A stretch of DNA of 33,498 nucleotides from Loktanella sp. GTDB lineage: Bacteria > Pseudomonadota > Alphaproteobacteria > Rhodobacterales > Rhodobacteraceae. Positions 1,315 through 32,703 of the stretch are shown one piece after another (position 1 is the stretch's first letter; every line of letters begins with the position of its first letter). The notes under the pieces were generated by a model. That model searched no databases. It saw nothing but the letters and a program-made list of their open reading frames with translations, and was not told where the DNA came from. A program made the position numbers and the translations under genes. The stretch covers positions 1-33,498 of the forward strand of contig JAIVHI010000012.1 in the NCBI GenBank assembly GCA_020201155.1, given 5' to 3'.

Positions 1315-2213
1315 ATGCCGTCACTGACCCTTGGCTCTGCCCAACTTACCCCGCCGGTTGCACTTGCGCCCATGGCGGGGATCACTGACCTGCCGTTCCG
1401 CCAGCTTGTGGCCTCTTTTGGCGTGGGCTGGGTCGTGAGCGAAATGGTCGCCAGTCAAGAGATGGTGCAGGCCCGCCCCGGGACGCGTGAAAAGGCGGAA
1501 CTGGGCATGGATCAGCGTGCCACGGCCGTGCAGCTTGCCGGTCGGGATGCCTACTGGATGGGCGAAGCGGCACGTCTGGTCGCCGATCAGGGCGCGGCCT
1601 TCATCGACATCAACATGGGGTGCCCGGCCAAGCAGGTGACGGGCGGACAGTCCGGCTCGGCCCTGATGCGGACGCCCGATCATGCACTGCGCCTGATCGG
1701 CGCCGGGCAGAAAAGGCCGGTGTGGCGCTGGTCACGATCCACGGGCGCACGCGGTGTCAGTTTTACAAGGGACAGGCCGACTGGGCCGCGATCCGCCGCG
1801 TCAAGGACGCCGTGTCGATCCCCGTCATCGCGAATGGCGACATAATCGATCATTCAACCGCCCGCAAGGCACTGGACGCCTCGGGCGCCGATGGGGTGAT
1901 GGTCGGTCGCGGTGCGCAGGGGCGACCCTGGCAACTGGCGCAGATCGCCCACGCCCTCTACGGCACGCCTGCACCCGTCATTCCGGCGGGGCATGATCTG
2001 GCGGAGCTGGTGGCCACGCATTATGAAAGCATGCTGTCCTTCTATGGCACGTGCATCGGCGCCCGCGTCGCGCGCAAGCACCTTGGCTGGTACATGGACA
2101 ATGCCGGCACGCCAGCTGTCCTGCGCCGTCACATCCTGACCGCGCAAGCCCCGGCCCATGTTCTGTCAGCCCTGCCTGACGCGCTGTCAGACTATCGTCA
2201 GGACGCGGCATGA
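1315..2213 (+). pseudogene. dusB: tRNA-dihydrouridine synthase DusB (NifR3), disrupted by an internal deletion with frameshift
   Basis: The first part (1315 to about 1700) reads as a clean DusB N-terminus: APMAGITDLPFRQL, VVSEMVAS, and [10 protein letters not shown] containing the catalytic cysteine. The sequence then leaves frame after [14 protein letters not shown]. Family sequence resumes in another frame at about 1705 with [19 protein letters not shown] and continues normally through [16 protein letters not shown] and ARKHLGWY to a stop at 2213. Compared with E. coli DusB, about 31-33 residues between these points are gone, including the conserved Lys-x-Arg-x-Gly-Trp segment that contacts FMN. 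The missing length must be 1 modulo 3, for example 97 or 100 bases. This is a deletion, not a single-base slip. The stop overlaps the ntrB start (ATGA), as expected for the ancestral operon. Confidence 0.9.
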
Positions 2214-4748: not shown

Positions 4749-7004
4749 ATGCGCGTGCAGCGATCCCTCTTGGGTGTGGATTTGCGGGTTATCAGCCGCT
4801 GGCGTCGGTCGCGCCGGCTGCAGAACGCGATGACGCTCGGGCTTGTCCTGCTGGGACCGATACTGACCGCCGCGACCTTCGTTGTCCTTGGCGGACCGCT
4901 GGAACAGGCGGGGTCCAGCAACCTCTTGCGGGTCGTCCTGCTGCTGGACCTTGTCTATATCATCATCGTGGCCGCCCTCGTGTTGGGGCGCGTGACGCGG
5001 ATGATGGTGGCCCGGCGTAACCGGTCAGCCGGTTCGCAACTTCACGTACGGCTGACCTCGATCTTCGTGCTTCTGGCACTCATTCCGACGGTTCTGGTCG
5101 CCGTCTTTGCCGTCCTCTCCATCAACCTTGGCTTTGAAGGCTGGTTTTCCGAGCGTGTTCAAACAGTTCTGGGCACATCCTTACGCACGGCCGAAGCCTA
5201 CGAAAGCGAAGAACAGCGCGAGGTTCTGCGCGACGGGCAGGCGTTGGCCGCTTACCTGAACACGGAACGGCAGACGAATTTCTTCATGAACGACGGTGAC
5301 GTACGCCAATCGATCCAAGCCGTGCAGAACCAGATCGACCGCGGCCTGACCGAGGTTTTCTTCATCGACAGTGCAGGCGAAATCAAGACACGCGGGGCGC
5401 GGTCCTACGACTTCAACTACGAACGCCCCACGCGCGCCCAATTCACCGAAGCCCTGGAGACGGGCGTCACACTGATAGAGGATGGGGCCAACAACGAGTT
5501 TCGGGCTTTGATCCCGCTCGAGACATTTCCGGACCGGTTCTTGCTGGTCACACGGTCCGTTGACGGTGAAATCCTGTCACTGCTGGACGAAACAAAGCAG
5601 ACGGTGGCCCTTTACGAACAGCTCGAAAAGGATCGCGGCAGGCTGCTGTTCGGCTTCGGTGCGATCTACCTTGGCTTCGCCGTCATTCTGATCCTTGCCG
5701 CCACATGGTTGGGCCTGTGGTTTGCCGAACGGCTGTCCCGCCCCATCGGTCGCTTGGTCGGCGCGTCCCAAAGGGTCGGCACGGGCGATCTGGACGTGCA
5801 GGTTCTGGAAGACGACGGTGAAGATGAGATCGGTCAATTAGGTCGTAATTTCAATCAGATGACGACACAGCTTAAAGCGCAGCGCGAAGCCTTGCTGAAC
5901 AGCAATCGCCAGTCCGAACGCCGTCGCCGCCTGTTCGATTCCGTGCTCAGCTCTGTCACGTCCGGCGTTGTCGGTCTGGATGAGGAAGGGCGCGTCACCT
6001 TCGTCAATCCTTCGGCCAAGCGCCTGTTGGAGGTGGACGAAACCCAATCGGCGCAGGCCTTGGCAGTCGCCGTGCCCGAATTCGGAGTGCTGTTCGACAA
6101 GCTGGTCCGCGAGGGACGGCCCTTTGTGCAGGAACAGGTCAATCTGGCCCGTATGGGACAGCAGGAAAGCCTGCTGGTCAGGATGGCTCCGCGGCGAACG
6201 GTGAACGGGGACATCGAAGGCTATGTCGTTGCTTTCGATGACGTCACCGATCTTGTCAGCGCGCAGCGCATGGCCGCTTGGGGCGACGTGGCGCGGCGGA
6301 TCGCGCATGAAATCAAGAACCCGCTGACGCCCATCCGACTGTCGGCCGAGCGGATCGCACGCAAGTTCGGCGCCGAAGTCGAAGACAGCGAAAAGCTGGC
6401 GCAGATGACCGATGTCATCGTGCGCCAGACCGAAGACCTGCGGCGCATCGTCGACGAATTCTCCAAGTTCGCACGCATGCCGGAACCGGAATTGCAGACG
6501 CACGATCTGGTGGCACTGGTCCGCGATGCCGTGACCCTGCAAGAGGCTGGGCAGCCGGATGTGAAGATGGTGTTCGATCTGCCGCAAGGGCCGGTCATGG
6601 CGGATATCGACAGCACGATGATCAGTCAGGCCCTGACCAACTTGATCAAGAATGCCGGTGAAGCCATTGAAACACTGAAAGAAGAAACCGGCGACCTCAT
6701 CGTGGAACCCGAAATCCGCGTCACGATGACAGAATCTGAACACAGGGCGCGGATCGTGATCGAAGACAACGGTATCGGCCTGCCAGAGGACCGCGCCCGC
6801 CTTTTCGAACCCTACGTGACCACCCGCGACAAGGGGACGGGGCTGGGGCTTCCGATCGTCAAGAAGATCATCGAGGAACACGGCGGCCAGCTGACGCTGG
6901 TGGACGCCGACATATTCGAAGGACAGGACCGTTGTGGTGCTGCCGCCATCGTTGAATTGCCGATTGCACCTGATGTGCACGCGGCCAAGAAAATACCTGC
7001 TTAG
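4749..7004 (+). CDS. ntrY: Membrane sensor histidine kinase NtrY
   Basis: A 751-residue kinase of normal NtrY length. Three membrane segments lie near residues 28-48, 59-81 and 104-126. A periplasmic domain follows, then a fourth membrane segment (about 299-324), a HAMP linker, a PAS domain (about 410-510), the phosphoacceptor motif [15 protein letters not shown] with His520, and an ATPase domain with NLIKNAGEA, EDNGIGLP and GTGLGLPI. It pairs with NtrX; known roles in alphaproteobacteria include nitrogen metabolism and, in some species, redox or envelope control. The frame is open back into ntrC, but I chose the ATG at 4749, which has an AGGTGG ribosome-binding site 8 bases upstream and gives the family N-terminus. 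It is probably expressed with ntrX, which starts 8 bases downstream. Confidence 0.93.
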   Translation: MRVQRSLLGVDLRVISRWRRSRRLQNAMTLGLVLLGPILTAATFVVLGGPLEQAGSSNLLRVVLLLDLVYIIIVAALVLGRVTRMMVARRNRSAGSQLHVRLTSIFVLLALIPTVLVAVFAVLSINLGFEGWFSERVQTVLGTSLRTAEAYESEEQREVLRDGQALAAYLNTERQTNFFMNDGDVRQSIQAVQNQIDRGLTEVFFIDSAGEIKTRGARSYDFNYERPTRAQFTEALETGVTLIEDGANNEFRALIPLETFPDRFLLVTRSVDGEILSLLDETKQTVALYEQLEKDRGRLLFGFGAIYLGFAVILILAATWLGLWFAERLSRPIGRLVGASQRVGTGDLDVQVLEDDGEDEIGQLGRNFNQMTTQLKAQREALLNSNRQSERRRRLFDSVLSSVTSGVVGLDEEGRVTFVNPSAKRLLEVDETQSAQALAVAVPEFGVLFDKLVREGRPFVQEQVNLARMGQQESLLVRMAPRRTVNGDIEGYVVAFDDVTDLVSAQRMAAWGDVARRIAHEIKNPLTPIRLSAERIARKFGAEVEDSEKLAQMTDVIVRQTEDLRRIVDEFSKFARMPEPELQTHDLVALVRDAVTLQEAGQPDVKMVFDLPQGPVMADIDSTMISQALTNLIKNAGEAIETLKEETGDLIVEPEIRVTMTESEHRARIVIEDNGIGLPEDRARLFEPYVTTRDKGTGLGLPIVKKIIEEHGGQLTLVDADIFEGQDRCGAAAIVELPIAPDVHAAKKIPA

Positions 7005-8467: not shown

Positions 8468-9844
8468 ATGAAGGTCATCATCTGCGGCGCGGGTCAGGTC
8501 GGTTGGCAGATCGCGCGGCACCTGTCGGGCGAGCAAAACGACGTGACCGTCGTGGACAACAATCCCGAACTTGTGCGCCGCGCGACCGATACGCTGGACG
8601 TGCAGGGGATCAGCGGGTTTGCCAGCTATCCAGATGTGCTTGACCGTGCGGGCGCACGCGACGCGGACATGATCATCGCAGCGACCCATTCGGACGAGGT
8701 CAACATGGTCACCTGTCAGGTGGCCCATTCGGTCTTTGCGATCCAGCGCAAGATCGCGCGTCTGCGGGCCCAAAGCTACATGGACGCGATCTATTCCGAT
8801 CTTTACCGGCGCGATCACCTTCCGATCGACGTGGTCATCAGCCCGGAGCGTGAGGTGGCGGATGCCGCCTTGCAGCGTCTTGCGGCGCCCGCGGCCTTCG
8901 ACGTGGAAAGCTTTCTTGAGGGAAAAGCACAGCTTCTGGGGATCACGATCGACGAAAACTGTCCGGTCATCAATACGCCCCTGCGGCAACTGACCGACCT
9001 TTTCTCGACCCTGAAGGCGATCGTCGTAGGCGTGCGACGATCCGGGCAGTTGTTCGTACCCGCGGCAGGCGACCAGCTTTTCGTCGGGGACGACGCCTAT
9101 ATCTTCACCGATACCCGCGACCTCGACCGGACGCTCGAGATCTTCGGCAAGACCCATAAAAAGCAAGAGCGGATCGTCATCATCGGGGGCGGAAACGTGG
9201 GCCTTGGCGTCGCCCGCGTGCTGGAATCGCGCACCGAACGGTTGCGCGTGAAAGTCATCGAACAGAACCGCACCCGCGCGGAACAGGCGGCGGACGTGCT
9301 GGACAGGACAATCGTGCTGAACGGGGACGGGCTGGATACGGCCATCCTGCAGGAAGCCGGAATCTCCAGCGCCGACGCTGTTCTTGCGGTGACGGACGAC
9401 GACAAGACGAACCTGCTGGCCTCGGTCCGAGCGAAAGAGCTTGGGTGCAAGATGGCGATCACGCTGATCAACGATCCCACGCTGGTGCCACTGATGGGTC
9501 CCTTGGATATCGACGCCTACATCAACCCGCGGTCCACGACCGTCAGTTCGATCCTGCGCCATATCCGCCACGGACGTGTGCGCGGTGTGTATTCGATCGG
9601 GGACGCCGAGGCGGAAATGATCGAAGCGCAGGTGCTGGGCACATCGTCGATCGCCGGCCGGACGATCAAGGAAATCGACTTTCCCGAAGGGACCATCGTG
9701 GGCGGGCTTCTCAAGGGTGGAAAACCCGTCCGGCCAACCGGTGACACCCGCATCGAAGAGGGCGACGTGATCGCCATTTTCGCCATGACCGGCGATGTTC
9801 CGGAGGTAGAGCAACTGCTTCAGGTCACGCTCGAATACTTCTGA
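8468..9844 (+). CDS. trkA: Trk potassium uptake regulatory subunit TrkA
   Basis: A 458-residue cytoplasmic protein built of two RCK units. Each has a Rossmann nucleotide-binding fold: CGAGQVGWQIARHL at residues 6-19 and IGGGNVGLGVARVLE from about 239. Each is followed by a TrkA-C regulatory domain. TrkA binds NAD(H)/ATP and gates the TrkH channel. AGGAG at 8454-8458 is well placed for the ATG at 8468; a nearer ATG at 8463 is followed at once by a stop and is not the start. The stop shares one base with the trkH ATG (TGATG), so the two subunits are translationally coupled. The trkAH pair following ntrYX is a recurring alphaproteobacterial arrangement. Confidence 0.95.
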   Translation: MKVIICGAGQVGWQIARHLSGEQNDVTVVDNNPELVRRATDTLDVQGISGFASYPDVLDRAGARDADMIIAATHSDEVNMVTCQVAHSVFAIQRKIARLRAQSYMDAIYSDLYRRDHLPIDVVISPEREVADAALQRLAAPAAFDVESFLEGKAQLLGITIDENCPVINTPLRQLTDLFSTLKAIVVGVRRSGQLFVPAAGDQLFVGDDAYIFTDTRDLDRTLEIFGKTHKKQERIVIIGGGNVGLGVARVLESRTERLRVKVIEQNRTRAEQAADVLDRTIVLNGDGLDTAILQEAGISSADAVLAVTDDDKTNLLASVRAKELGCKMAITLINDPTLVPLMGPLDIDAYINPRSTTVSSILRHIRHGRVRGVYSIGDAEAEMIEAQVLGTSSIAGRTIKEIDFPEGTIVGGLLKGGKPVRPTGDTRIEEGDVIAIFAMTGDVPEVEQLLQVTLEYF

Positions 9845-13849: not shown

Positions 13850-16153
13850 TCATCTACTGGCTGTTTCCGGCGTCAGAACAATCGTGCCCAACTGCGCTGC
13901 GCGGGCCAGAGCCGGATCGAGAGACATGGGAATGTATTCGCCCCGTCGCCATAGTTCGCCCAGATCTTCGTAGTGTCGTGACAGCGGGTGCCCCGATTGG
14001 CCCGTTGCGGTGATGAAGACGCTGCTGTCGGGGTCGGCAAAATCGTAGACCCCACGGTAGCCTGCCGCATGGACGTTCTGGAACGGGTTGCGCCCCACGC
14101 CGCTGGTGCGTCCGCGTTCCAGCGTATTGTCGCCGCCGCTGGTGCTTTGGCGGATGTTCACGAACCAATTCAGCACCGGCACCTCGCCCAGGACCTGATG
14201 GTCGTGCGTCGCCTGATGCGCATCCCCCCAGCGCAGGCTTGCAATGGTGGTTCCATAGGTCTCGTTGATCCAGATCAGCGCGTCGTCCAAGGCCTGACGG
14301 CTGATGTCCGTGCAGGTTTCGACCTGCGCCGATTGCAGCACGTCGCACCAGGCCGATGCGCCGTCCACGTCACGGAAGACCCGTTCGATGAACACCGGAT
14401 CGGGGTGGGTGAACTCGGCGGTCAGGGGGCCGAGTTCGTCGCGGGTCAGCCTGTCCTGCAATGCCCGCAGCCACGCCGCGTAGATCAGCGGCTCTGGCAG
14501 GTGTTCGTTCATCTCGCCATTCCACGCGGCCAGAAGCTCCAGCGCCTGTTGACGGCGGCGTTCGGGCGTGTCGTCGGGTGACGGGTCGCCAGTGTACCAA
14601 AGGTCGGCACCGATCAGAGGCAAAAGCGCGCGGGCCGTGAAGCTGACCGTGTCAAGCTGCGCCTCGACGAAACTGCCCAACGTATGCACTTCGCGCGCTT
14701 GCATGAGCCCGCGCCAGCGGTTGATGCGCTGCGTGTCGCCCCAGGTGAAGCTGACATGCTCGGGAAACGGGCGGTCGATCATCTTGTTGTTGGTATTGCC
14801 GAGGATGCCGCCTTCAGGCTCCAGAAACTCCGGGTTGGTGTCGTAGGGCAGGATCCCTTGCCAGCGGTTCTCGACCCGCCATCCGGGCGCGGGCAGACGC
14901 CCCTGGCTTTGGTGGTCGGGATCGCGCGCCGGCATGGCGCCGATGGTCTTCATCGCGATACGGTTGCGGTCTGCGAGGATCAGGTTCTGGCTGGGGGCAA
15001 TGAATCCTTCGCCCGCGGCGATGCCGTCCTCGATGGTCCGGGCGCGCATCAGCGCCATGGCGGAAGACAGCGACGTGTCCTCTCGGCTCAGGGCGGTCCA
15101 GCCAAGTGTCGCCACATGACCTTCGGGCAGCACGTGGCGCAGATCGAACATGTCCCGCGACAGGACGGGGCCATTCTCGCTCCAGCGCAGCTTGATCGTC
15201 TCGGAGCCGCTGTCCTTGACGGTGATGATGCTGTCGCGTGACCGGAAAGTCGCCCAGCCGTCCGGCGTGCGGTACTGCGTCGAATCCTCGGGGTTCAGTT
15301 CTTCCAGAAAAATGTCCTGATCGTCGAGGTTGCTTGACGTGATACCCCATCCCAGATCGACGCTGCGCCCGGTCAGGATCACCGGCACCCCCGGGATCGT
15401 GCCGCCGATGACGCCACCGGTATCGGTCGGCGCATCGGGAAAAAGTGCTGCAAACTCGGGCAGGGCGGCCACACCGGTGCCCGGATCTTCGGGCAGGATG
15501 TCATGTAGCCGCTCATCGGGGATGGCGGGTTCGGATCCGATGCGCAGCGACACGCGGGCGCGCAGCACTTCCTGCTCGACATGGCTGGTCAATTGCAGCG
15601 CCATGACCTTGAGGATGGCAAGGCTGTCTGCAGGCTGCCACGGCGCGATGGATTGGTTGAAAAGCCACATCTCCGGCGCGCCACGTCCGCGCGCGCCTTC
15701 GTTCACCTTGCCAAGCCAAGCGTTCACCCCGGCTGAATAGGCATCAAGGGCCGCCTTGGTCGCATCGTCCTGCGCCGCCACCGAGGCGATGGCCGTGTTG
15801 TAAAGGTCAAGCCGGCGCAGCAGCCGGTCGGTGGGCAGCGTGCGCGGCCCGAACAGCTCTGACAGGCGGCCCTGCGCGGTGCGGCGCAGCATGGTCATCT
15901 GCCACATGCGGTCCTGCGCATGGGCATAGCCCAGCCCGAAGAACACGTCTTCGTCCGTGTCTCCGAAGATATGCGGCACCGCTGCATTGTCGCGGACGAT
16001 TTCCACCGGGGCCGAAAGACCGGCCACCGTCTCGTCCGCATCGTAGTCCACGAGCGACCGCGAGGCAAAATAGTAGGAAAGGGCGAAGGCCGCGACGATC
16101 AGCACGAAAAGGGCCGAGGCGATACGAAGCAACCAACGAAAAACAAGCGCCAT
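13850..16153 (-). CDS. Penicillin acylase family protein lacking its catalytic nucleophile (internal in-frame deletion)
   Basis: A 767-residue protein of the penicillin/acyl-homoserine-lactone acylase family, with an N-terminal membrane anchor (about residues 8-30). It has the alpha-chain marks VPHIFGDTDEDVFFGLGYAHAQ and LDAYSAGVN, then beta-chain marks such as DLGWGITSSNLDDQDIF and GGDNTLERGRTSGVGRN near the end. These Ntn hydrolases self-cleave before a Ser in a Gly-Ser-Asn-x-Trp motif. Here EFAALFPDAPTD runs straight into TGGVIGGTIPGVPVIL (residues about 233-260, near base 15420). The nucleophile motif and the following LLANDPHLG segment, roughly 50-60 residues, are absent. The frame stays open, but it should be unable to self-process or catalyse. 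It could be a decaying gene, a non-enzymatic derivative, or an assembly error. Confidence 0.85.
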   Translation of the reverse strand: MALVFRWLLRIASALFVLIVAAFALSYYFASRSLVDYDADETVAGLSAPVEIVRDNAAVPHIFGDTDEDVFFGLGYAHAQDRMWQMTMLRRTAQGRLSELFGPRTLPTDRLLRRLDLYNTAIASVAAQDDATKAALDAYSAGVNAWLGKVNEGARGRGAPEMWLFNQSIAPWQPADSLAILKVMALQLTSHVEQEVLRARVSLRIGSEPAIPDERLHDILPEDPGTGVAALPEFAALFPDAPTDTGGVIGGTIPGVPVILTGRSVDLGWGITSSNLDDQDIFLEELNPEDSTQYRTPDGWATFRSRDSIITVKDSGSETIKLRWSENGPVLSRDMFDLRHVLPEGHVATLGWTALSREDTSLSSAMALMRARTIEDGIAAGEGFIAPSQNLILADRNRIAMKTIGAMPARDPDHQSQGRLPAPGWRVENRWQGILPYDTNPEFLEPEGGILGNTNNKMIDRPFPEHVSFTWGDTQRINRWRGLMQAREVHTLGSFVEAQLDTVSFTARALLPLIGADLWYTGDPSPDDTPERRRQQALELLAAWNGEMNEHLPEPLIYAAWLRALQDRLTRDELGPLTAEFTHPDPVFIERVFRDVDGASAWCDVLQSAQVETCTDISRQALDDALIWINETYGTTIASLRWGDAHQATHDHQVLGEVPVLNWFVNIRQSTSGGDNTLERGRTSGVGRNPFQNVHAAGYRGVYDFADPDSSVFITATGQSGHPLSRHYEDLGELWRRGEYIPMSLDPALARAAQLGTIVLTPETASR

Positions 16154-28273: not shown

Positions 28274-28791
28274 CACTCTACGCACTCGATCAGATTTCCC
28301 CCACGGTCGCTGACAGCGCGTGGATCGCGCCCTGTTGCCACGTGATCGGCAAGGTGACCGTGGCCGACCGCGCCTCGGTCTGGTTCTGCACCACGATCCG
28401 GGGCGACAACGAGATGATCACCCTTGGCGAAGGATCGAACGTGCAGGAAAACTGCGTCCTGCACACCGACATGGGCTTTCCGCTGACCATCGGCGCGGGG
28501 TGCACCATCGGTCACAAGGCGATGCTGCACGGCTGCACGATCGGCGAAAACAGCCTGATCGGGATGGGGGCTGTCGTCCTGAACGGGGCGGTCATCGGGC
28601 GCGACTGCCTGATCGGGGCAGGGGCGCTGATCCCGGAAGGCAAGGTGATCCCCGATGGATCGCTTGTCATGGGCATGCCCGGCAAGGTCATCCGCGCGCT
28701 GGATGCAGAGGCGATTGAAAGGCTGCGCGCCTCGGCGCGGCACTATCAGGAGAACGCCGCGCGGTTCGCGAAAGATCTGCGGCCGCTCTAG
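28270..28791 (+). CDS. Gamma-carbonic-anhydrase-like hexapeptide-repeat protein
   Basis: A 173-residue left-handed beta-helix protein of the YrdA/gamma-carbonic anhydrase class. Hexapeptide repeats run through about residues 17-145 (for example [50 protein letters not shown]). The three metal-binding histidines are in place: His65 (VLHTD), His82 and His87 (GHKAMLHG). Active-site residues Arg44 and Asp46 (RGDN) are also visible. Trimeric relatives bind zinc or iron; carbonic anhydrase activity varies. The ATG overlaps the gmk stop by four bases. Its TAG overlaps that of the convergent small gene (CTAG). Confidence 0.92.
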
Positions 28792-29174
28792 CTGGCCTGC
28801 GCGACCCGCCCGCGCACGACCTGCACGTCCAGTTGCGGGGCGGCATGGCGCAGGTCCCGCGTCACCAGCGCCGGGTCCGGGACGTGGTTGCAAACCACCA
28901 GATAGCGCCCTTGAAACGAAAGCCTGCCAAGCAACAATGCAAGTTCGAGCGCATCGGCACTTCGATTGAAGAGCGGCGAAATGATGATGTCCGGCTGCCG
29001 GCTGAACAAAAGGCTCGCGTCTAGCTCGCTCACCTCGTGAAAATAGATGCCATCACACGCGGGTGTCGGCTGGTTCCAATCGCTCAGGTCCCCTAGAACG
29101 ATCATGCAGGGATATGTCCCTGCGCGGGAGATGGGCCAACCGTCGCCGGCATCAGGAGGGGCATTGTTGAACAT
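28788..29174 (-). CDS. Small conserved protein of unknown function (128 aa)
   Basis: No named domain. The central part, [34 protein letters not shown] followed by [22 protein letters not shown], resembles a response-regulator-like or Rossmann-like alpha/beta pattern that I associate with uncharacterised roseobacter proteins. It appears soluble and has no signal peptide. The ATG at 29174 lacks a clear ribosome-binding site; an internal ATG at 29105 (MIVLGDL) is an alternative, and would place a hairpin (29106-29123) immediately upstream. Its stop codon shares the palindrome CTAG with the convergent carbonic-anhydrase-like gene. It is divergent from phoR. Confidence 0.65.
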
Positions 29175-29290
29175 CGCGTGGGGATATGCCTCTTGTTCAG
29201 TGACGCCATGGGCGGGAAAGCAAAGATGAACCGAATCGAGATCAGCAACGATTGCGATCGCGCATGGGTTTGTACGATAATGGACAGTCG

Positions 29291-30163
29291 ATGACCGATC
29301 AACTGATCAAATTTATCGAGCATTTGCCACTTCCCGTCGTGCTGATCGGCGAAGACCGGCGGATCATCGCGTCGAATGCCACGATGCGGACCGTTCTGGG
29401 CGAGGACTGGCAGGGGCGGCATTTCATCACCGCCCTGAGACAACCCTTGCTGATCGAGGCGGTCGAGACGGCGCTGGTTACGGGTGCGGCGCAGCGCACC
29501 GTCTTTCTGGACCGCGACGGCGGGCGCGACCGCACCTTCAGCGTCGCCGTCTCGACCGAACCGGGCTACGTGGCCCGTGACCGCTTCCTGTCGATTATGG
29601 CCCGCGAGGCGGATCGGATGACGCGGCTGGTCGACGATCTTCTGTCGCTCAGCCGGGTCGAGGAAACGTCACGGATGCGACCGCAGGATCCCGTCGATCT
29701 GGCCGCATTGGTCGACTCCGCCCTGGTCGAAACCGGCCCTGTGATCGACACGGTCAAGGCACGGCTCAGCGTGTCGTTGACCAAGGGCACGATCGTTCCG
29801 GGCGACGCCGGGCAGTTGCGCCAGGTGATCGGCAACCTGATCGAGAACGCGGTCAAATACGGCCCCGAAGGTGGCACCATCACGATAACCCTGTCCGATA
29901 TCGGCCCGCAGCCAAGGCTGAGGGCGGATGGGGTGGCTCTGACCGTGCACAACGAAGGCGAAGGAATCGCGGAACATCATCTGCCGCGACTGACCGAACG
30001 CTTCTACCGCGTCGACAATCACCGCAGCCGCGCAAGGGGCGGCACCGGTCTGGGCCTGTCCATCGTCAAGCATATCATCACCCGCCATCGTGGCAGGCTG
30101 GAAATCGACAGCGCGCCGGGGCAGGGGGTCACCGTGCGGATCATCCTGCCCGTTCAAACCTGA
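29291..30163 (+). CDS. phoR: Phosphate-regulon sensor kinase PhoR lacking its phosphoacceptor histidine segment (in-frame deletion)
   Basis: A 290-residue PhoR-like protein. A PAS domain occupies residues about 8-90 (LPLPVVLIGEDRRIIASNATMRTVLG). The kinase part has DRFLSIMAREADRMTRLVDDLLSLSRVE, the second dimerisation helix, then N box NLIENAVKYG and ATP-lid motifs NEGEGI and GTGLGLSIVKHI. The first helix, with the invariant SHELRTPL-type phosphoacceptor His, is missing. FSVAVSTEPGY jumps into VARDRFL at residues about 88-95 (near base 29560), so roughly 50-60 residues are gone in frame. It should bind ATP but cannot autophosphorylate in the normal way. I chose ATG 29291; ATG 29264 and TTG 29252 are alternatives. 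Position before a Pho box and pstB-phoU-phoB fixes the identity. Confidence 0.85.
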   Translation: MTDQLIKFIEHLPLPVVLIGEDRRIIASNATMRTVLGEDWQGRHFITALRQPLLIEAVETALVTGAAQRTVFLDRDGGRDRTFSVAVSTEPGYVARDRFLSIMAREADRMTRLVDDLLSLSRVEETSRMRPQDPVDLAALVDSALVETGPVIDTVKARLSVSLTKGTIVPGDAGQLRQVIGNLIENAVKYGPEGGTITITLSDIGPQPRLRADGVALTVHNEGEGIAEHHLPRLTERFYRVDNHRSRARGGTGLGLSIVKHIITRHRGRLEIDSAPGQGVTVRIILPVQT

Positions 30164-30169
30164 CCCCGG

Positions 30170-30198
30170 CGTCACAAAACCTTAACCCCGCCGTCACA
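30170..30198 (+). promoter_or_regulatory. Pho box (PhoB-binding site) downstream of phoR
   Basis: Three 7-base units spaced exactly 11 bases apart: CGTCACA (30170-30176), CTTAACC (30181-30187) and CGTCACA (30192-30198), with 4-base spacers. This matches the direct-repeat layout recognised by PhoB dimers. In roseobacters such a site lies between phoR and pstS and drives the pst operon. Here the next recognisable gene is pstB, about 295 bases downstream. Confidence 0.75.
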
Positions 30199-30206
30199 GC
30201 AGCGTT

Positions 30207-30492
30207 TTGCGGAGGCTCTATCTGGGGTGCTACGGTTGGTGTGTCCCTGTCCCGGCAATGAAAGGCAACTTGGGTGGCGAATGTGGAGAATGCGACCGTC
30301 GGTGCAGAGATCTTCGTCGCAGCCCCACAGCATCCGATCTCTTCCCAAAAGTCGGCCGCGAGAGCTTTGCCAATCCGGCCTTTAACCGCACCGATTGCAG
30401 TGGCATGATTGACGGGCCGCTCAAGCTGGGCGTCGCACTGATGTGTTCACCGGTGCGGGGTCAGTTTCAATACCGCAAGTAAAGGGGTCAGA
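30207..30492. other. Non-coding, repeat-like stretch where pstS, pstC and pstA would be expected
   Basis: This 286-base stretch separates the Pho box from pstB. It has open frames on both strands (a 91-codon plus frame and a 64-codon minus frame), but neither shows a domain, signal peptide or ribosome-binding site, and their composition (Cys/Arg-rich, Pro/Ser/His-rich) is unlike the neighbours. No trace of PstS, PstC or PstA coding is recognisable in any frame. The sequence has the feel of a dispersed intergenic repeat of Rhodobacteraceae, which I cannot verify here. An AAGGGG ribosome-binding site for pstB lies at its right end. Confidence 0.55.
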
Positions 30493-31281
30493 ATGGACGA
30501 TTTGCACCGTACGGACCAAGCGACGGACACCAAGATCACGGCACGTGGCGTGCAGGTGTTCTACGGCGACACCCATGCCATCAAGGACGTCGACGTCGAC
30601 ATCGCCGACAAGATGGTCACCGCCTTTATCGGGCCGTCCGGCTGCGGCAAGTCGACGTTCCTGCGCTGTCTCAACCGGATGAACGACACCATCGCCATTG
30701 CCCGCGTGACGGGCGATATCCGCATCGACGGGGCGGATATCTATGACCCAAAGATCGACCCGGTGCAGTTGCGCGCCATGGTCGGTATGGTGTTCCAGAA
30801 ACCGAACCCTTTTCCCAAGTCGATATATGACAATGTGGCCTACGGGCCCAAGATCCACGGGCTGGCGAAGAGCAAGGCGGACCTAGATGAAATCGTTGAG
30901 AAAGCCCTGCGGCGCGGTGCGATCTGGGACGAGGTCAAGGACCGGCTGGACGCACCGGGCACCGGGCTTTCGGGCGGTCAACAACAACGCCTGTGCATCG
31001 CCCGCGCAGTGGCGACAGAGCCCGAGGTCCTGCTGATGGACGAGCCTTGCTCGGCCCTTGATCCCATCGCCACGGCACAGGTCGAAGAGCTGATCGACGA
31101 TCTGCGCAAACGCTATTCAGTGGTGATCGTGACCCATTCGATGCAGCAGGCCGCCCGCGTCAGCCAAAAGACCGCCTTTTTCCACCTTGGCAACCTTGTG
31201 GAGTTCGGCGCGACCGACAAGATATTCACAAATCCAGAAGACCCGCGCACCGAGAGCTACATCTCGGGTCGCATAGGGTGA
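30493..31281 (+). CDS. pstB: Phosphate ABC transporter ATPase PstB
   Basis: A 262-residue PstB, full length. Walker A is GPSGCGKST (residues 47-55), then the PstB-typical [32 protein letters not shown], signature [14 protein letters not shown], Walker [13 protein letters not shown], and switch His in [14 protein letters not shown]. It powers the PstCA phosphate permease and relays status to PhoR through PhoU. AAGGGG precedes the ATG at 30493. The oddity is the context: its partners PstS, PstC and PstA are not encoded upstream, where they usually lie, so either they are elsewhere in the genome or this ATPase is orphaned. Confidence 0.96.
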
Positions 31282-32013: not shown

Positions 32014-32703
32014 ATGTCCCTGCCGCAGCCTCATGTCCTGATCGTGGAAGACGAAGCTTCTCAGCGCGAGGTGCTGGTCTACAACCTCACTGCCGAAGGG
32101 TTCCGCACGACCGCAGCCATGGACGGAGAAGAGGGGCTTTTGATGGTGGCCGAGGAAAAGCCCGATGTGGTCGTGCTGGACTGGATGCTGCCGCGTCTGA
32201 GCGGGATCGAGGTCTGCCGCCGGTTGAAAATCAACCCGGCCACCCGCGAGATACCGATCATCATGCTGTCGGCCCGATCCGAGGAGGTGGACAAGGTGCG
32301 CGGCCTCGAGACGGGCGCGGATGACTACATGGTCAAACCCTATTCGATCAGCGAACTCATGGCGCGGGTCCGCACGCAGCTGCGTCGCGTGCGCCCCTCG
32401 AGCATCGGCGAGATGCTGACCTTCGAGGACATCGCGCTCGATAGCGAAACCCATCGGGTCACCCGGGCCGGACAGCCGCTCAAACTAGGGCCGACCGAAT
32501 TCCGGCTGCTTTCGACCTTCATGGAACGGCCCGGTCGCGTCTGGTCGCGCGACCAGCTTCTCGACCTTGTCTGGGGCCGTGATGTCTATGTCGATACCCG
32601 CACGGTCGATGTCCACGTGGGCCGACTTCGTAAGGCCCTGACGGCTGCCGGTGGCGAAGATCCGGTGCGAACGGTACGCGGTGCGGGCTATGCGCTCGGC
32701 TAG
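32014..32703 (+). CDS. phoB: Phosphate regulon response regulator PhoB
   Basis: A 229-residue OmpR/PhoB-type regulator. The receiver has acidic Glu12/Asp13, the phosphorylatable Asp56 (VVLDWMLPRLSG), and the Lys of MVKPYS. The C-terminal winged helix has TEFRLLSTFMERPGRVWSRDQLLDLVWG and VDTRTVDVHVGRLRKAL with the RTVRGAGYAL ending. It binds Pho boxes such as the one at 30170. It is intact, but its cognate kinase in this window lacks the phosphoacceptor segment, so it may depend on another kinase or stay unphosphorylated (inference). Confidence 0.96.
   Translation: MSLPQPHVLIVEDEASQREVLVYNLTAEGFRTTAAMDGEEGLLMVAEEKPDVVVLDWMLPRLSGIEVCRRLKINPATREIPIIMLSARSEEVDKVRGLETGADDYMVKPYSISELMARVRTQLRRVRPSSIGEMLTFEDIALDSETHRVTRAGQPLKLGPTEFRLLSTFMERPGRVWSRDQLLDLVWGRDVYVDTRTVDVHVGRLRKALTAAGGEDPVRTVRGAGYALG

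Follow-up and report, generated by a model that had tools for sequence, protein, structure and literature searches.

In Escherichia coli, the DHp domain of the sensor kinase PhoR is described in the relevant passages of PMC4423584 as serving dimerisation, bearing the phosphorylated histidine and contributing the phosphatase activity towards phospho-PhoB, and the interaction of PhoR with PhoU as relying on its PAS domain. That a kinase devoid of the histidine can be repurposed is illustrated by DivL, in the account given in PMC4211667. Another line of work bears on how broken or shortened genes are to be read, since PMC11017572, in the parts that concern us here, attributes many putative bacterial pseudogenes to assembly errors and regards inflated counts of them as the mark of a poor assembly.

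With regard to the present locus, the window that was analysed is a stretch of 33,498 nucleotides, which makes up the whole of contig C6 in a draft genome of Loktanella sp. (342 contigs, 91.48% complete, 2.35% contaminated). Its phoR region comprises the following features.

29264..30163, + strand: phoR open reading frame as assembled, 299 residues, continuous, with an alternative start at 29291
29318..29548, + strand: PAS domain (PAS_4, residues 19-95; Pfam, 21.8 bits, slightly below the 23.1 cut-off)
29566..29573, + strand: join at which about 51-57 residues, the H box among them, are missing relative to relatives, from alignments to the latter
29579..29665, + strand: second dimerisation (DHp) helix (HisKA profile positions 37-65; the lone helix, residues 106-135, of the structural model)
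29801..30157, + strand: HATPase_c, the catalytic, ATP-binding domain (Pfam, residues 180-298, E 4.2e-30)
30493..31281, + strand: pstB, 82-89% identical to its counterparts in L010, L011 and L018
31296..32009, + strand: phoU
32014..32703, + strand: phoB

A sequence-only reading of this DNA had held that the PAS domain is followed directly by the second dimerisation helix and that the preceding helix, with the H box, is missing in frame. Both points are borne out by Pfam and by alignments to relatives: the PAS domain runs almost straight into the second helix, and HisKA is matched at profile positions 37-65 of 66 alone (23.9 bits, below the 26.9 cut-off), the match in the PhoR of the relative L018 spanning positions 2-65. 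Compared with L018 and L011, the gap amounts to 153 bp (51 residues) and is in frame, while the alignment to L010 contains 57 gapped columns in total. A scripted H-box pattern was present in phoR of 80 out of 80 relatives (the best 80 of 400 matches) and absent from phoR of the window. The description of the ATPase domain as perfectly conserved went too far, as the stretch VHNEGEGI (29945-29968), which we take to be its G1 box, carries Asn in place of the usual Asp, a replacement also found in L018.

The features that define a PhoR are thus present in part: the PAS domain lies ahead of the kinase core (as also aligned to relatives), HATPase_c follows and pstB, phoU and phoB are adjacent, but a HisKA domain with the phosphoacceptor histidine is missing. 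The match to the PhoR family profile TIGR02966 (201.6 bits, profile positions 149-332) falls below the cut-off of 334.2, a score that says little alone, the cut-off being exceeded in just one of 14 control genomes. A second complete phoR was also sought in the draft, as had been proposed, and no other match lay above this cut-off. The next-best match, on contig C157, was rejected as a second PhoR, being a different, multi-PAS kinase with an internal stop. This histidine kinase (L252, around 5980) is interrupted right after ASHDL at its apparent H box, and its similarity to other kinases goes on in the same frame past the stop; the gene beside it is CheY-like by eye. An AlphaFold2 model of the short PhoR, built with six sequences (mean pLDDT 68, pTM 0.50), displays a PAS-like portion, one lone helix (residues 106-135, pLDDT 33-52) and an ATPase domain in which pLDDT mostly exceeds 80, except around residues 231-270. 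As weak evidence, the model is consistent with a loss of the DHp bundle.

Upstream of phoR are located what are presumably gmk and a gamma-carbonic-anhydrase-like gene, as well as a 128-residue open reading frame (28788-29174, - strand), a conserved small gene with no Pfam match, whose counterparts (30-46% identical) are found just upstream of phoR in relatives including L018, L015, L017, L045 and L067. Downstream, the window is without the pstS-pstC-pstA genes that separate phoR from pstB in L018, L010 and L011. Remains of PstS, PstC or PstA gave no match in 30166-30492, the 91-residue open reading frame of this segment has no Pfam match, and its DNA has no match in the loci searched, which excluded L001-L009 and hence L009 of Loktanella fryxellensis. 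Other, more divergent pst genes occur elsewhere in the draft, on contigs C199 and C103 (PstS of C199 is 41% identical to that of L018, compared with 75% between L018 and L010), and pstC on C199 is split, its middle part missing. In L019, L020, L026, L044, L056 and L072, phoU begins within 300 bp after phoR, the H box is normal and no pst gene adjoins phoR. In L. fryxellensis L009, phoR is followed by about 640 bp without a pst match (8999-9640), and then by phoU; this arrangement, like those of L019, L020 and L026, indicates that the linkage of phoR and pst varies in the group. The missing pstS-pstC-pstA was accordingly rejected as a further lesion, since pst genes are likewise absent at this place from relatives whose H box is normal, and since divergent pst genes are carried on C199 and C103.

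The gap in phoR has counterparts in other genes, both in the window and on contig C298 of the same draft.

1350..2213, + strand: dusB, broken between 1699 and 1700, with a gap of about 88 bp, frame shifted
13850..16153, - strand: penicillin-amidase-type gene, with an in-frame gap near 15421, 132 bp in most protein alignments
C298 (L179), at 6364: hemC, with about 365 bp lost, frame shifted
C298: galactose-epimerase-like gene, with a gap of about 133 bp, frame shifted
C298: family 36 glycosidase gene (Melibiase domain), with a 471 bp gap, in frame

Within the window, a protein-level comparison with seven relatives revealed three internal gaps, in dusB, the penicillin-amidase gene and phoR. All three were seen with four relatives and with G088, two with G050 and none with G018 (nine genes tested), and the same comparison of the seven relatives among themselves yielded zero such gaps. 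When the first 20 kb of the window were mapped to eight genome entries, two of which (G006 and G148) are evidently one genome since their coordinates are identical, the matches broke at about 1699 in dusB, with some 88-90 bp missing versus each entry. As for short repeats as a cause of the joins, none shared was seen at dusB, on the weak evidence of two relatives that stand in for the intact sequence; the phoR join was compared in part, with one relative.

One further 20-kb stretch each of C298 and C108 was matched with relatives and, together with C6, formed the basis of a count restricted to genes for which two or more relatives allowed a test. Internal gaps of at least 50 bp were present in 6 of 45 draft genes, versus 0/43, 0/46, 0/47 and 1/47 in four relatives (1/183 overall; Fisher p ~3e-4). 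C6 had been chosen because of the phoR finding, and the count without it is 3/27. Five of the six gaps are supported by all four relatives and the one in the epimerase-like gene by three. The frame is shifted in half of them (dusB, the galactose-epimerase-like gene and hemC) and kept in the other three. Among the relatives a single event was counted (L239, near 4278); of its two supports, one derives from an open reading frame of G149 whose predicted length exceeds that in the other genomes. On C34, a GH1 beta-glucosidase gene is also frameshifted, by a gap of about 119 bp that was seen with one relative only. In a broad comparison, 20 draft stretches (364 kb) were set against about 0.9 Mb of two relatives, which allowed 19 genes to be tested (4 + 15) and returned one gap; the same script, applied to G147 versus G148, returned two events in 81 genes and two in 89, one of them a 1-base shift. 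As few shared genes were obtained in this way, the broad comparison was replaced by the matched stretches.

Taken together, the comparison with relatives points to a draft with several silent internal gaps, half of which are in frame, and the missing H-box stretch is probably a lesion of the draft assembly, the organism itself most likely having an ordinary PhoR that phosphorylates PhoB. Contig C6 would have been joined over some 150-170 bp of phoR, the reading frame being kept by chance, and C6 and C298 would likewise have been joined over missing stretches of other genes; alternatively, the sequence may have been lost in another technical step. We infer a technical origin of the gaps, in sequencing or assembly and not in the cell, and the phoR lesion is read in this way because other conserved genes of the draft, unrelated to phoR, have comparable gaps, which are rare or absent in relatives. 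Several observations run against this explanation. The phoR gap, like two others, is in frame. C108 is free of gaps supported by two relatives in the 11 genes tested, so that the lesions are not uniform. Finally, events supported by one relative only, which were not counted, are found in relatives too (1, 2, 1 and 0 in G150, G148, G149 and G147, versus 1 in the draft), and the comparison of G147 with G148 likewise yielded events, two in 81 and two in 89 genes.

A real and recent in-frame deletion in a gene-losing genome, leaving PhoR inactive and PhoB either off or served by other phosphodonors, would account for the preserved frame, for the absence of pstS-pstC-pstA between phoR and pstB, unlike in L018, L010 and L011, and for the stop near the H box of the kinase on C157; several gaps within one genome would also suit genome erosion. 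We nevertheless regard such a deletion as unlikely, as genes are damaged here without wider decay. Outside the gap, PhoR shares 53-55% identity with its counterparts in four relatives, among which the identities are 47-75%, and PhoU is 73-78% identical to those of relatives, versus 73-85% among the latter; PhoR therefore diverges no faster than in relatives, shows no sign of decay and looks normally constrained. On either side of the gaps in dusB and hemC, the DNA likewise remains about 72-78% identical to that of relatives, and a phoR without adjoining pst genes, as in the six loci named above, whose H box is normal, is by itself no sign of decay. A profile search of the draft found hemC as two pieces on C298 alone, covering profile positions 2-78 and 203-291 in different frames, with no other hemC match; a heme-requiring alphaproteobacterium would hardly tolerate the loss of its only hemC, although an intact copy could sit in the 8-9% of the genome that is missing from the assembly. 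Far less probable still is a functional pseudo-kinase, in which a living bacterium would keep a helix-less, in-frame PhoR with constrained PAS and ATPase domains as a partner of PhoU and PhoB that would bind PhoU and ATP and, much like DivL, sense phosphate or serve as a decoy for PhoB with no phosphotransfer. The intact reading frame, the retained PAS and ATPase domains and the adjoining pstB, phoU and phoB would fit this idea, for which DivL offers a precedent. Against it, the short form occurs in none of the 80 best relatives, the remaining DHp helix is modelled at low pLDDT (33-52), the other gaps of the draft need no such purpose, and DivL retains its DHp helices with Tyr in place of His, while the short PhoR is without the whole helix. 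A search of the open-access literature on pseudo-kinases returned no paper on PhoR, judging by titles and abstract openings.

An assembly lesion being the preferred explanation, the short phoR is most likely an assembly flaw and not new biology. Read at face value, the gene would imply that the response to phosphate does without a sensor kinase. From its domains, a protein of this exact sequence could not be expected to work as a normal PhoR: if real, it would be predicted to be unable to phosphorylate PhoB, and should lose kinase activity and probably also phosphatase activity and dimerisation, while binding of PhoU might persist. The earlier conclusion that such a protein could not phosphorylate PhoB normally is in this sense upheld as a reading of the domains, but probably does not apply to the organism, since the assembled sequence is very probably not that of the real gene, given the gaps in unrelated genes, the only hemC found among them. 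In-frame gaps produce believable false proteins that are missed by a frameshift check, and for this reason the absence of a catalytic motif in a single draft should be weighed against the rate of gaps elsewhere in the assembly.

Compared with known systems, the window protein resembles PhoR (TIGR02966) in its PAS domain, second DHp helix, ATPase domain and place beside pstB-phoU-phoB, and differs from it in being without the first DHp helix, which bears the H box. With DivL-type pseudo-histidine kinases it shares the absence of a phosphorylatable histidine and the retention of the ATPase domain; however, these have their DHp helix with the histidine substituted, by Tyr in the case of DivL as portrayed in PMC4211667, whereas in the short PhoR the first DHp helix itself is gone. 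There is also a likeness to the spurious pseudogenes that PMC11017572 ascribes to assembly errors, in that conserved genes are broken in the draft and intact in relatives, with the difference that this work, in the parts considered here, treats frameshifts and internal stops, while the present draft contains gaps of about 90-470 bp.
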